This document shows, piece by piece, positions 3,792 to 48,003 of a DNA stretch of 64,000 nucleotides; the first letter of the stretch is position 1, and every line of letters begins with the position of its first letter. The translations under genes and the position numbers were made by a program. The DNA is taken from positions 40,242-104,241 of the IMG/VR virus record IMGVR_UViG_3300027749_000062; one strand, 5' to 3'. This DNA is from a virus. The notes beneath the pieces were generated by a model that had not been told where the DNA came from, did no database searches, and worked only from the letters and a program-made list of their open reading frames with translations.

Positions 3792-6700
3792 TATCCAAAT
3801 ACCGTGTCTAAACTACCTGTAGCTGAGTTATAATATTGATAGACTACACTTACATTGCTATTGACAAATCCAACTCTATTACCAACATAAATACTGTCTG
3901 CAACGCCGACACCACCAAACACTTGTAATGCACCTGTAGTATTTGATATAGATGTGGTTGTATTTGTTATTATTAAATTACCAGTAATTGTTACATTACC
4001 GGTAATTGTACCACCAGTATTTGCATTGACTGTATTGTTTGCTCTTGTATAAGCCGCATTAGCTTGTACAAAAGCACCATTGGCATATAATGATGACGAG
4101 TTTGCAACATTAAATCCGGCGTTTGATTGTACAAAAGCACCGTTAGCATATAGTTGTGCTGAGTTTGCAGTAAAGTAAGCAGAATTGGCATATGTGCCGG
4201 TTACATTCTGACTACCGTAAGCAGCATTCGCCTGAACAAATCCACCGTTAGCATAAAGTTGTGCCGAGTTAGCCGTATAGTAAGCTGAGTTGGCATATGA
4301 ACCAGTCGTGTTCTGACTTATGTAAGCTGCATTTGCCTGTGTATATGCATTTGTGATATAAGTGAATACATTATATCCACTAACATATATTGTGTTGGCT
4401 ATGACATTTGCTTTTACAGTATTAGCTATTAGATTTGCACGTTGATAAGAAGGATCTGTAATTATAATATTGTTATTGGGTGATACTTCTGGTGTATAAC
4501 CTTCAAATATATTCCATTCTTTTGTATCCGAATCTCGGAAAAAACCTGTGTGTGCGTTTGTTCCATTATTATAATGTGCAGCAAAACCAATATCTAATGC
4601 ATCTGAGTAATAATTTCCTAAACCCAATAATATCAAAGTATCTTTTACAGTAAAAGATTCAGTATTGGTTGTTATAGTAGTACCTAATACAGTCAAGTTA
4701 CCTTGAATTGTTGCATCTTGGACAATGGTTAAATTGCCTGTAATTGTTCCGCCTGCCAAAGGTAAAGCATTATTAGCTTTCAAGAATGCAGAGTTTGCAT
4801 ATGACCCAGCTGAATTAGCAAAACTAAGTGCAGTATTGGCATATGTACCTGTCACATTCTGGCTACTATAAGAAGCATTGGCTTGTACAAAAGCACCATT
4901 TGCATATAACTGTGCTGAATTGGCCGTATAATATGCCGAGTTAGCATATGTGCCTGTAGTTATTGCATTTGCATTGGCGCCGTTAGCTGCTAGATAAGCC
5001 GAGTTTGCATAAGAACCAGATGTTATGGCATTCGCATTTGCATTATTAGCCGCCAGATAAGCTGAGTTAGCATAAGTTCCTGTTACATTTTGACTAGTGT
5101 ATGATGCATTTGCCTGTACGAATGCACCATTAGCATATAACTGTGCTGAATTGGCGGTGTAATATGCTGAGTTTGCATAAGAACCAGATGTTATTGCATT
5201 CGCATTTGCGTTATTAGCCGCTAAGTAAGCTGAATTAGCATAAGTTCCTGTTACATTTTGACTAGTGTATGATGCGTTAGCTTGAGTAAATGCACCATTC
5301 GCATATACACCAGCAGAATTTGCAGAAAGAAATGCTGAGTTAGCATATGCACCTGAGGTTATTGCATTTGCATTAGAATTGTTTGATGATAAAAATGCAG
5401 AATTGGCATATGAACCGAATGTTATTGCATTAGCATTCGCACCATTGGCCGCCAAATAAGCTGAGTTAGCATAGGTACCAGTTACGTTTTGGGAAGCATA
5501 AGCTGAATTTGCCTGTACAAAAGCACCATTGGCATATAACTGAGATGAATTGGCTGTATAATATGCTGCATTAGCATATGTACCTGTTACGTTTTGTGAA
5601 CTATAGGCCGCATTGGCTTGTACGAGAGCACCATTCGCATATACGCCAGCAGAATTTGCTGTTGTAAAAGATGCATTAGAATATGCATAAGGTGCAGCCG
5701 CAGTAACTTGATATGTTGTATCGGGAAATATTACACTAACTGAAGTATTAACAGAATTTGCATATATGATATTAACACCACCAATATTTCCACTCGAACC
5801 GGTTGTGGTAAAATAAGCAGCTGTTACATTATTTGCAACTGTTAAATTATTGGATACAGTTAAGTTGCCTGCTGTAATTATTGTGCTTGTATTTTGTAAT
5901 GCCGTATTTGCAACTCCAAAAGATGCATTGGCCTTAACAAAAGCACCATTCGCATATACACCAGCAGAATTTGCTGTTGAGAATGCTGAGTTAGCGTAAA
6001 TACCAGTAGTATTTTGAGAACTAAATGCTGAGTTAGCGTAAATACCAGTAGTATTTTGAGAACTAAATGCTGAGTTAGCGTAGGCACCAGTTGTTATTGC
6101 ATTGGCATTCGCACCATTAGCCGCCAAGTAAGCTGAATTGGCATATGTACCGGTTACATTCTGAGAAGCATATGCTGAATTTGCTTGCAAGAAAGCTGCG
6201 TTTGCCGCGCTACCAGCTGAAGTTGAATTTGCTGTTGCGAAGGCAGCATTAGCCTGAGCAAATGCACCATTAGCATATACACCAGCAGAATTTGCAGTAT
6301 AGTATGCTGAGTTAGCATATGTACCAGATGTTATTGCGTTAGCATTTGCACCATTGGCTGCTGTATATGCGGAGTTAGCATATGTGCCAGTCACATTTTG
6401 TGAAGCATATGATGAGTTTGCTTGTGCAAACGCTGATGTAATACTGGTGTTCTGTGTTAAATTAATTCCATTCGATGAAGAATAGACCGAATTTGCTTGA
6501 GTGAATGCACCATTGGCATATGTACCAGATGTTATTGCGTTGGCGTTTGCATTATTGGCTGCTAAGTAAGCTGAATTAGCATAAGTTCCAGTTACATTTT
6601 GACTAGTATATGCAGAATTGGCTTGTACAAAAGCACCATTCGCATATAAACTCGCTCCATTTGCTTGTGTAAAAGCGGAGTTAGCATAGATGCCGGTGGT

Positions 6701-44494: not shown

Positions 44495-44938
44495 TTAGAA
44501 ACTAAATTTAACGCCAGCAGTAATACGGCTACCGTTTTCTGCAACAACCCGGTCTTGACCAGCTTGGTAACTGTAATCAAGTCCTGCTGTAACTGACTTG
44601 GTAATTGGCATACGAGCACCAATACCAGCAGAAGCGGCATAACCATCATAAGCTGAACCTGATTGGCTATCGATAAAAAGAAGACCAAATTTAGCATCAA
44701 TTGATACAGGTCCCATTTTTGATACCTCTACACTATTAACCAAACTGTAAGAGTCAGCGGATGTAGAACGATTGAATCCTGCGGTTAGGTTATAACCATG
44801 TACGGTTTCACCAACTGATACACCCCAAACATTTTGTGTTGAGCTAAGATTGGTGCCATCATTGATACCAACTTCTAAAGCCTGTGCGCTTGCAAATACA
44901 CCCATAAGGGATGCGATAAGTACGAGTTTTTTAATCAA
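44495..44938 (-). CDS. Outer-membrane beta-barrel-like secreted protein
   Basis: 147 residues beginning with TTG (44938) at 7 bases from AGGAG; no ATG is available that keeps the signal peptide. Residues 1-20 (MIKKLVLIASLMGVFASAQA) are a classical signal peptide with cleavage after AQA. The mature part alternates polar and hydrophobic residues (GYNLTAGFNRS, SIDAKFGLLFID, ASAGIGARMPI, SVTAGLDYSYQ) and ends GVKFSF with a terminal Phe, the usual recognition signal for outer-membrane barrel insertion. About six to eight strands. It lies behind the tmRNA promoter and may be co-transcribed with it. Possible roles are receptor masking or host-surface change; not proven. Confidence 0.75.
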   Translation of the reverse strand: MIKKLVLIASLMGVFASAQALEVGINDGTNLSSTQNVWGVSVGETVHGYNLTAGFNRSTSADSYSLVNSVEVSKMGPVSIDAKFGLLFIDSQSGSAYDGYAASAGIGARMPITKSVTAGLDYSYQAGQDRVVAENGSRITAGVKFSF

Positions 44939-44964
44939 AATTTTCTCCTATTGTTGAACAAATT

Positions 44965-45270
44965 GCCGACTGATTGGATAATAAGGACAGTCGGCGAAAC
45001 CTCAGCTTAGCTTAAGCAGCTAGGCGATATGCGGAGTCGTTTGCATTTACGTTTTTTGCTTGATTAACGGTCATCGCCTACCGTGCTGTCCACTCTGTTA
45101 CTTGTTGCCCTGTCGAAACTATGCACCCCCATCAAAAACGCACCAAAGGACTTGAACCTTATTTCTAGAATAGTACCATACAACCAGAGCGACTGGCAGA
45201 TGCGTTTTTGGTGGAGGTGGGGGGATTCGCACCCCCGTCCAGAACACTTTTCTCTTTGCTTCATACAGCA
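44965..45270 (-). ncRNA. ssrA: Circularly permuted (two-piece) tmRNA
   Basis: Read on the minus strand, the acceptor piece comes first: T-arm GGGGG-TGCGAAT-CCCCC (45236-45220), acceptor strand CACCTCC, A, and an encoded CCA ending at 45209. A 78-base intervening segment follows (45208-45131), then the coding piece begins GGGGGTGCATAGTTTCGACA (45130), the hallmark of tmRNA 5' ends. Its GGGGGTG pairs with CACCTCC over 7 bp. The tag frame is at 45044-45012: ANDSAYRLAA then TAA, preceded by an A-rich stretch as in E. coli (ANDENYALAA). ACAGC (45089-45085) can pair with GCTGT (45269-45265) as part of helix 2. A hairpin GCCGACTG/CAGTCGGC (44995-44965) closes the 3' side. This order (acceptor before coding half) is that of permuted tmRNAs of alphaproteobacteria, cyanobacteria and some betaproteobacteria. 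Exact outer ends are uncertain. Confidence 0.88.
45131..45208 (-). other. tRNA-like intervening segment of the permuted tmRNA
   Basis: The segment joining CCA to the 5' of the coding piece folds with a terminal AAAAACGCA/TGCGTTTTT helix. Inside, ACGCATC pairs with GGTGCGT (7 bp, one GU), CCAG-TCGCT-CTGG resembles a D-arm, and AAGG-TTCAAGT-CCTT is a near-canonical T-arm. The distance between the D- and T-like arms (22) is what a tRNA would have, but no proper anticodon stem can be formed. Presumably removed during maturation. Confidence 0.5.
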
Positions 45271-45277
45271 ATAAAAT

Positions 45278-45368
45278 ACACACTTAGGGAGATTCTCACT
45301 CCCGTACCCACAAAGTGGGAACTTAGTCTAATTGCACAGCTGAGCCATGTCCCAGTTCATAAGTGTGT
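45278..45368 (-). ncRNA. tRNA-like structured leader before the tmRNA
   Basis: The first bases downstream of the promoter fold as ACACACTTA / TAAGTGTGT (9 bp; arms 45368-45360 and 45286-45278) with a 5-bp, 7-nt-loop hairpin GGGAG-TGAGAAT-CTCCC directly against the 3' arm, exactly where a tRNA has its T-arm, and a CCCAC-TTT-GTGGG hairpin before it that would fit a long variable arm. The 5' half does not give a convincing D-arm or anticodon. It may be a degenerate class II tRNA or a domain of the pre-tmRNA. Confidence 0.45.
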
Positions 45369-45377
45369 TAATTATAT

Positions 45378-45406
45378 ATTGTATCACAGGATTAGAGACT
45401 TGTCAA
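45378..45406 (-). promoter_or_regulatory. Promoter of the tmRNA transcript
   Basis: TTGACA-N17-TACAAT on the minus strand; start of RNA expected near 45371, just before the tRNA-like leader. The -35 lies in an imperfect dyad (AGAGGCTTGACAAGTCTCT), which also follows the stop of the cupin-like gene at 45419 by 6 bases and could act as its terminator. Confidence 0.75.
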
Positions 45407-46581: not shown

Positions 46582-47239
46582 AGGTTGTTTTATAGAATTC
46601 AATCGCTTTTACTAATCCCTCAATGTGGTCTTCTGTCTTTTCAACAAACACCAATGGTTCAGAACCATCTACGGCCATCAAGGTTACAATCTGGTCGACA
46701 GGTGTACCAATCATTTCTTCTAACATCAATGCATATGCAGTTTCTTGCCAAAAGTAAGACATAATCTTATCTCTTGTTTTGATTCGGCTACTGGTTTTAA
46801 AGTCAATAATGGACAGTTTATTATCCCAATGTGCAATCAAATCAACACGCCCAGCAACACCAAGTTTCTTGGAAAACAATGTACACTCTTGATACCAAAT
46901 ATCAGATACATTCGCATCTATGATTGGTTTAAGACTCTTGAACATTTCCAATGCATCAGGCATGGCTTTCTTTGAATACTCTGAGTTATTGTTTAGATAT
47001 GCTTCACAGAGGCTATGCACATTCGTACCACGGCCAGATGCTTTACGCGAGATTTTATTAGCTTCTTCTTCACCAACACGTTTACGCCACGCAAGTATGT
47101 CAGCTTTACTCATCGCACCTAAAACGGTGGTAATGGAAGGCAATCTTGTACCATCAGCCAACTGATAGTATCTTTTACCATCAGGAAAAGTAGTAGATTG
47201 TAAATCTTGTAAAGATTCAGGTGGGCAGTAGTTAAACAT
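46577..47239 (-). CDS. PD-(D/E)XK family nuclease
   Basis: 220 residues. LPSITTVLGAMSKADILAWR, then a GRGTNVHSLCE motif (69-79, the His/Glu helix) and the catalytic core GVAGRVDLIAHWDNKLSIID, with D133, D146 and K148 (DFKT). This is the RecB-like/Cas4-like exonuclease family often found beside PhoH in T4-like phages. The Gln of WQETAY completes the usual QxxxY-type motif. Probably acts in recombination or DNA degradation. One-base overlap with phoH. Confidence 0.8.
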   Translation of the reverse strand: MFNYCPPESLQDLQSTTFPDGKRYYQLADGTRLPSITTVLGAMSKADILAWRKRVGEEEANKISRKASGRGTNVHSLCEAYLNNNSEYSKKAMPDALEMFKSLKPIIDANVSDIWYQECTLFSKKLGVAGRVDLIAHWDNKLSIIDFKTSSRIKTRDKIMSYFWQETAYALMLEEMIGTPVDQIVTLMAVDGSEPLVFVEKTEDHIEGLVKAIEFYKTTL

Positions 47240-48003
47240 TATATTCCTAATTTATCGCAGGCAACAATCCATGATTTAACCAAACTGCTGCGAACAATGT
47301 CTTCTGGTGTAAATCCAATTTCAGTAAACTCATTCATATGTCTTGCAACATTCAAAAACTCTGCAAGGCCTGATATATCATTCCTACTCTTAATTAAGTC
47401 ATTCTGTTTCAAGTCACCAACAAAGATAATCTTAGAACGGTGACCAACACGGGAAATAACCGAGCTCAATTCGTGAAATGTCATCGACTGACATTCATCT
47501 ACAATAATGATAGAGTTGTCAATAGAGATGCCACGAATAGCTGTAGTGGAAATAAATCTAGCGTAACCTTGTTCCTTCAATCTATCCCACGCATCGGAAC
47601 GACCAAAAAGTGTCTCACATATTTCTTTGTAAGGCACTTCATAAATCTCCATCTTTTCATCTAGTGTACCTGGAACAAAACCTTGGTCTCTTACCTGTAC
47701 AGCAGAACGAACAACCACAATATGTGTAAATGGATTGTCTTTGTTTAGAACTTCTTCAATTGCACGATACAATGCTAAAAATGTTTTACCGACACCTGGT
47801 GATCCTAATAGGCCAATAAAGTAATCACCTGTTTTATATGCGTCAAAGAACTTTTGTTGATTTTGTGTTAGTGCTTCAAATGTTTTTAAATGGTCTAATT
47901 TTATTTTTAAAGAGTTTGAAACGGGTAGGTGTCTGTGTATTACCTCATCACCTTCAATCGAATCATCACGTTTTTGTATTGCTGTTTTTCTATTGCTTGC
48001 CAT
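47239..48003 (-). CDS. phoH: PhoH-like ATPase
   Basis: 254 residues. After a short N-terminal extension comes the PhoH core: Walker A GSPGVGKT (67-74), the RSAVQVRDQGFVPGTLDEKM signature, Walker B IIIVDECQSMT, and KIIFVGDLKQND. PhoH proteins are helicase-like P-loop ATPases of uncertain role, perhaps in RNA metabolism, and are common in marine and freshwater phages. Here no phosphate-regulation site is seen. Confidence 0.92.
   Translation of the reverse strand: MASNRKTAIQKRDDSIEGDEVIHRHLPVSNSLKIKLDHLKTFEALTQNQQKFFDAYKTGDYFIGLLGSPGVGKTFLALYRAIEEVLNKDNPFTHIVVVRSAVQVRDQGFVPGTLDEKMEIYEVPYKEICETLFGRSDAWDRLKEQGYARFISTTAIRGISIDNSIIIVDECQSMTFHELSSVISRVGHRSKIIFVGDLKQNDLIKSRNDISGLAEFLNVARHMNEFTEIGFTPEDIVRSSLVKSWIVACDKLGI

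Follow-up and report, generated by a model that had tools for sequence, protein, structure and literature searches.

The circularly permuted tmRNAs described by the Rfam families RF04321 and RF01850 are arranged as an acceptor half, an intervening sequence (IVS) and a coding half, and have a closing acceptor stem, a T-arm, a CCA end and a tag reading frame; the consensus IVS of RF01850 is about 29 nt long. Genes of this kind are already known in phages. A survey of 18,146 phages found tmRNA genes in 402, of which 53 were of the two-piece form (50 of these in aquatic phages), and it had already proposed that they serve in ribosome rescue or in the tagging of host proteins (PMC9004378). Methylophilales phage Melnitz (Kyanoviridae), an aquatic T4-like phage, carries a permuted tmRNA of the alpha type with a long IVS, and a glutamine riboswitch is located just downstream (PMC9004378). 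A database paper from 2025 reported a tRNA-Ala inside the IVS of a permuted tmRNA in the nominally archaeal GCA-2688965 sp002688965, an arrangement that was called unique (PMC11915505).

The locus analysed here adds one more member to the phage group. It follows the order of RF04321 and RF01850, but it is phage-borne, its IVS is 78 nt long and a structured RNA (the leader) precedes its acceptor half. Melnitz is a distant relative (38% identity in the baseplate protein) that differs in its alpha-type tmRNA and its downstream riboswitch, and no copy of the leader was found in it. The locus in GCA-2688965 sp002688965 is similar in that its IVS holds another RNA gene; many of the phage IVSs compared here, however, hold structured modules that are not tRNAs, or reading frames, and swap them. 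A search of the open-access literature, the coverage of which is incomplete, yielded no report of swappable phage IVSs, of coding IVSs or of the leader RNA.

A circularly permuted tmRNA in a T4-like phage record

The window, i.e. the whole 64,000-nucleotide stretch of DNA analysed, is part of a 104,241-base IMG/VR virus record. ARAGORN made a single call over the whole window, a tmRNA* with the tag ANDSAYRLAA. The Rfam model RF04321 (tmRNA_permuted) matched positions 45270-45012 with 137.2 bits (E = 8e-27; gathering cut-off 47) and RF01850 (beta_tmRNA) matched 45322-44955 with 99 bits (E = 7e-29; gathering cut-off 84), both scores exceeding the cut-offs. Direct reading placed all components on the minus strand (Table 1). 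The acceptor stem GGGGGTG/CACCTCC pairs at seven of seven positions, including the G3-U70 wobble that marks tmRNA as an alanine acceptor. The tag codons (GCA AAC GAC TCC GCA TAT CGC CTA GCT GCT TAA) begin 86 nt into the coding half. The covariance model scores, the order of the halves, the stem with its G3-U70 pair, the T-arm and a tag frame with an alanine resume codon and a hydrophobic end make it near certain that this is a circularly permuted, two-piece tmRNA. A sequence-only reading of the same DNA had proposed a phage-encoded permuted tmRNA with the halves in this order, 7 bp of pairing between the ends and this tag 86 bases into the coding half; all of this, coordinates included, was borne out, and the ARAGORN and permuted-model searches that it had suggested were positive.

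Table 1. Positions of the tmRNA, the leader RNA and neighbouring features in the window
Feature	Position	Strand	Remarks
Promoter, sigma70-like	45378..45406	minus	TTGACA-17-TACAAT, TG before -10; +1 predicted near 45371
Structured leader RNA	45278..45368	minus	about 91 nt, four helices
Leader P1	45368-45360/45286-45278	minus	
Leader P2	45349-45344/45340-45335	minus	
Leader P3	45319-45315/45311-45307	minus	
Leader P4	45303-45299/45291-45287	minus	T-arm-like, loop UGAGAAU
Acceptor half	45209..45273	minus	starts about TATTGCTGTATGAAG; Rfam models and direct reading
T-arm	45236-45220	minus	GGGGG-TGCGAAT-CCCCC, 5 bp; in acceptor half
Acceptor 3′ strand	45219-45213	minus	CACCTCC; followed by A, then CCA (45211-45209)
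IVS	45131..45208	minus	78 nt, between CCA and acceptor 5′ strand
Coding half	44955..45130	minus	begins GGGGGTGCATAGTTTCGACA at 45130; 3′ hairpin CCGACTG/CAGTCGG; RF04321 and RF01850
Acceptor 5′ strand	45130-45124	minus	GGGGGTG (GGGGGUG)
Tag frame	45012..45044	minus	ANDSAYRLAA-stop; ARAGORN and direct reading
Downstream gene	44495..44938	minus	147 aa, TTG start, AGGAGA upstream; directly 3′ of tmRNA
PhoH-like gene	47239-48003		

The T4-like structural genes on the record identify it as that of a virus infecting bacteria. Matches to PHROG families included a baseplate wedge protein, a tail-tube-cap protein, a T4-type single-strand binding protein, a helicase loader and an endolysin, and the nearest annotated phages by baseplate protein (38–40% identity) were the Pelagibacter phages HTVC008M and Mosig and the Methylophilales phage Melnitz. 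Neither this record nor 11 others with such tmRNAs yielded an SmpB gene (12 virus records, possibly incomplete), so host SmpB would be required. The 147-aa protein encoded downstream of the tmRNA had no match in Pfam or PHROG; it has a signal-peptide-like start and is predicted to be a small secreted or outer-membrane protein. A homologue of its gene comes after the tmRNA in L317, L322 and L326 (L-numbers are labels of the loci and contigs compared, mainly viral). Small, signal-peptide-bearing, outer-membrane-like genes lie beside the tmRNA in several phages; that of L215 is upstream of it.

Phage copies of permuted tmRNAs are less rare than the sequence-only reading had supposed: besides the 53 two-piece tmRNAs of isolates mentioned above, hundreds are present in viral contigs. 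Four pattern scans matched at least 120, 43, 89 and 37 viral stretches, and more than 250 permuted tmRNAs were found in viral contigs by such scans. The pattern for the variant in the window matched 89 viral stretches versus one sequence in an 84,980-species genome collection, for which the pattern was slightly stricter. This sole match (L254, UBP17 MAG contig DITF01000195.1) is probably viral itself, since its IVS is identical to those of the viral contigs L197 and L200. In L099, an abiF RNA (RF03085, 56 bits; positions 5582-5618) was seen beside the phage permuted tmRNA.

Within the window's lineage the acceptor stem varied: GGGGGTG/CACCTCC was replaced by GGGCCTG/CAGGTCC in L317, L319, L321 and L325, by GGGCTGG/CCAGTCC in L327 and by GGGGATG/CATCTCC in L326. 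Every variant was fully paired and retained G3-U70, and these compensated changes argue for selection on a charged, working tRNA-like end. The tag was identical in six relatives (L317, L321, L322 and L324-L326), and the relatives in this lineage are all still recognised by Rfam. In a wider count of 266 loci, in which full pairing was a selection criterion, the constancy of the G-U pair is partly by construction, because the pattern by which most of these loci were retrieved included CTCCACCA; six loci with GTCC are exempt.

The leader RNA and its distribution

The sequence-only reading had credited the tmRNA with a strong promoter of its own. A sigma70-like promoter is indeed present, but it does not abut the tmRNA: some 105 nt separate it from the acceptor half downstream, the structured leader RNA lies in between, and the promoter would fire first into this leader. 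The leader begins about 3 bases past the predicted +1 and ends 4 bases short of the conserved beginning of the acceptor half; the transcript should open with the leader. The -10 region TGTGATAYAAT is retained just ahead of the leader in L317, L319-L321 and L325-L327.

The leader was first hinted at by the fold of the region (z = -2.7), and homologues were found in 35 other viral contigs. A covariance model built from 12 copies, the window being left out, gave the window leader 56.1 bits (E = 1.4e-12 in 64 kb). In an alignment of 25 copies fitted to the model, 95.6% of cells were paired, and 18 of the 22 pairs had changed on both sides. Covariation in these copies was 0.614, as against 0.206 in shuffles (0 of 500 reached the observed value) and 0.035–0.142 in slid controls; an earlier MAFFT alignment of 13 copies agrees (13 pairs, 0 of 500). 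The weakest helix was P2 (83%), while the unpaired core GAUCURGRA ... GACUAAG was nearly invariant. On this comparative evidence, the leader is a well-supported structured RNA. Searches of Rfam (15) with the window leader up to E = 10 gave chance-level matches only (best 16.6 bits versus a cut-off of 71.8), and over the leader in L099, L074, L105 and L061 nothing was found up to E = 1 except the overlapping tmRNA models.

The leader is not called a tRNA by ARAGORN or Rfam and, although it has four helices, it has neither an anticodon arm nor a CCA end; the glutamine riboswitch (RF01739) was ruled out, as no Rfam model matched. With the BLAST probes used, no true copy was found in about 50,700 annotated phage records. 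Short matches to the probes occurred in Pseudomonas and Acinetobacter phages, and the Pseudomonas ones, when examined, were not the element. A second, over-constrained leader pattern found nothing.

In most copies the leader ends 3–5 nt before the acceptor half, but in L054, L099 and L255 it lies farther upstream, the additional sequence amounting to some 90 nt or more. The tmRNA IVS of L256 and L257 is the leader element itself. In L259, L316 and L323 it is found alongside tRNA genes with no tmRNA in the stretch, and in L260 with neither tRNA genes nor tmRNA seen. The records searched whole had one copy each, and the majority of phage tmRNAs have no leader. Judged by the loci compared, this distribution is more in keeping with a small-RNA module that exists independently than with a regulator dedicated to the tmRNA. 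L317 contains, between the leader and the acceptor half, a tandem second helix-closed segment of about 105 nt (AACACTATA...TATAGTGTT), which has AAGTGCAGATAGAC in common with the IVS of L010.

The intervening sequence and its contents

The window IVS is predicted to close with a helix, AAAACGCA/TGCGTTTT, that prolongs the acceptor stem, and to form interior hairpins, including the T-arm-like AAGG-TTCAAGT-CCTT; its sequence varies too little among its few relatives to reveal covariation. Rfam gave chance-level or sub-threshold matches for the IVS; that to the tRNA-like mascRNA (E = 0.016) was below the cut-off of that family and was rejected. IVSs were parsed at 275 phage loci among the matches listed, using patterns in which part of the gene is kept constant and which miss IVSs of 41–59 nt and of more than 121 nt; 176 distinct sequences were obtained, and 224 IVSs ended in TGAT. 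The majority are closed by a helix that prolongs the acceptor stem. One apparent case of a tRNA within an IVS, L018, was discarded: four tRNAs and no tmRNA were called there by ARAGORN, and the pattern match is probably a tRNA array beside a one-piece tmRNA.

Unrelated IVSs were found between tmRNA halves that are 96–98% identical in the pairs L066/L164 (98%, with IVSs of 67 and 25 nt), L017/L287 and L084/L131. The reverse was observed in L007/L210 (IVS 99% identical, halves 70%) and L089/L104, where IVSs 98–99% identical are flanked by halves about 70% identical. The window IVS is itself such a cassette: it is about 95% identical in L178, L206 and L228, whose tmRNA halves are clearly different and which have no leader, and a modified copy is present in L267, a 352-kb phage contig. 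A second module forms the IVS of L002, L063 and L069 and occurs free between tRNA genes at L178:3597-3690, where it has the fold of the L002-type IVS with changed helix sequences. The free copy lies directly after a tRNA-Val and before the next tRNA, in a 13-tRNA array. These comparisons show the IVS to be a slot whose contents are exchanged between phages.

Some IVSs encode peptides. Seven of the 176 unique IVSs (L097, L047, L102, L116, L289, L294 and L295) encode, in a frame between CCA and GGGG, strongly hydrophobic peptides of 22–32 aa, compared with an average of 0.11 for dinucleotide-shuffled sequences. Several of these frames have Shine-Dalgarno-like starts, their stop is mostly the TGA of the conserved TGAT, and the differences between the L047 and L102 frames are mostly synonymous or conservative. 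Among the close relatives of the window, the IVS of L317 and L319 encodes MKEKILTAIEMIAEFLKGIAQSL, and those of L321 (4100-4330) and L325 are about 170 nt long with a reading frame of 57–64 aa. Because the L321 frame extends into the tmRNA coding half, its translation would be in competition with maturation of the tmRNA. In L322 (minus strand, about 364–900 of the reversed stretch), a 179-aa HNH/endonuclease-VII-like gene (PHROG 3322, E = 2e-20) is located between the leader and the tmRNA, and its 3′ end reaches or overlaps the tmRNA; L326 seems to retain only the matching 3′ end of this gene. The nuclease is a possible agent of module exchange.

Proposed maturation of the precursor and possible fate of its modules

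The leader, acceptor half, IVS and coding half would be transcribed as a single precursor RNA. The coding half would be cut at its 5′ G by host RNase P, and the acceptor half would be trimmed 3′ at its CCA; host tRNA-processing enzymes would in this way excise the IVS, and probably the leader too, while the two-piece tmRNA would stay base-paired. It would then be charged by the host alanyl-tRNA synthetase via G3-U70 and brought by host SmpB to ribosomes that have stalled on broken mRNAs while the phage takes over the cell, where ANDSAYRLAA would be added to the stalled product, which would then be degraded. Tagging by a phage tmRNA together with host SmpB is the standard inference and is very probable here. 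As a whole, the locus is best explained as a ribosome-rescue RNA that works with host SmpB and is cut from a precursor which would also set free a leader and an exchangeable spacer RNA; we assign this reading a probability of roughly 0.6.

The leader and the IVS would be dispensable in the mature tmRNA, as separately evolving modules freed by the same processing. Because they are independently distributed and exchanged, we lean towards regarding them as cargo modules liberated by tmRNA maturation. They may derive from a pool of small structured phage RNAs, present in tRNA arrays as well, and of occasional mini-genes, and be traded between phages by recombination in conserved tmRNA sequence. 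Our best guess is that the modules are phage small RNAs like those kept in tRNA arrays. The T4 species 1 and 2 RNAs are small, stable, structured non-tRNA RNAs amid phage tRNA genes; the likeness is one of kind, and in the present loci such an RNA can in addition adjoin a tmRNA gene or lie inside it. The exchange could also be neutral hitchhiking of an excised RNA without function. More tentatively, and with odds perhaps a little short of even, the permuted tmRNA of aquatic T4-like phages might be a carrier, its leader and IVS slots holding unrelated small structured RNAs (of at least one new class) or mini-genes that are freed by ordinary maturation and moved by recombination, one relative having the HNH/endonuclease-VII-like gene that overlaps the tmRNA.

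The leader could instead be a cis-acting, riboswitch- or attenuator-like regulator of the amount of tmRNA, with the conserved junction binding a ligand or protein and the closing helix P1 acting as the switch. Its place at the extreme 5′ end of the transcript, so close to the acceptor half in most copies, would fit such a role, as would an aptamer-like build in which the helices vary and the unpaired core is strongly conserved, the T run that follows P1 in L317, L319 and L320, and the presence of a riboswitch beside the Melnitz tmRNA. This is rather unlikely, however, given the leaders within an IVS and those in tRNA arrays or alone, which have no tmRNA to regulate; further, the L074/L105 type has no T run and no Rfam riboswitch matched. 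A role for both elements as tRNA-like guides, recruiting RNase P or 3′ tRNA nucleases to the correct cuts, would account for the T-arm-like hairpin with which each ends beside its closing helix, and for the continuity of the IVS helix with the acceptor stem. It is improbable when IVS sequence and length are unrelated even among near-identical tmRNAs, certain IVSs encode peptides, most phage tmRNAs do without a leader and neither ARAGORN nor Rfam calls a tRNA.

That the tmRNA itself is decaying, or inhibitory and non-tagging, is suggested by the tag-less form of phage DS6A, reported to inhibit E. coli tmRNA (PMC11915505), and by a linker after the acceptor 5′ strand one base shorter than in the permuted consensus. 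The shorter linker, however, is common to 89 viral stretches, and an intact tag frame shared with six relatives, compensated stem changes that keep G3-U70 and high covariance model scores make this account most improbable.

The spacer findings suggest that the splitting of a tmRNA creates room in which phages can store and trade small RNAs or peptides. This makes it pertinent to ask why phages retain permuted tmRNAs, and dozens of loci are available for testing. The RLAA end of the tag, which the sequence-only reading had taken as a possible phage-specific feature, is weak ground for that idea: of the roughly 155 tags that ARAGORN called in the phage set, 90 ended in ALAA and 22 in RLAA. The cultured Xanthomonas phage Rb1 (L330; 16.3 kb region) likewise has a permuted tmRNA, unannotated in the stretch fetched, whose tag, ANDDNFRPALRLAA, ends in RLAA; this phage is a possible laboratory model.
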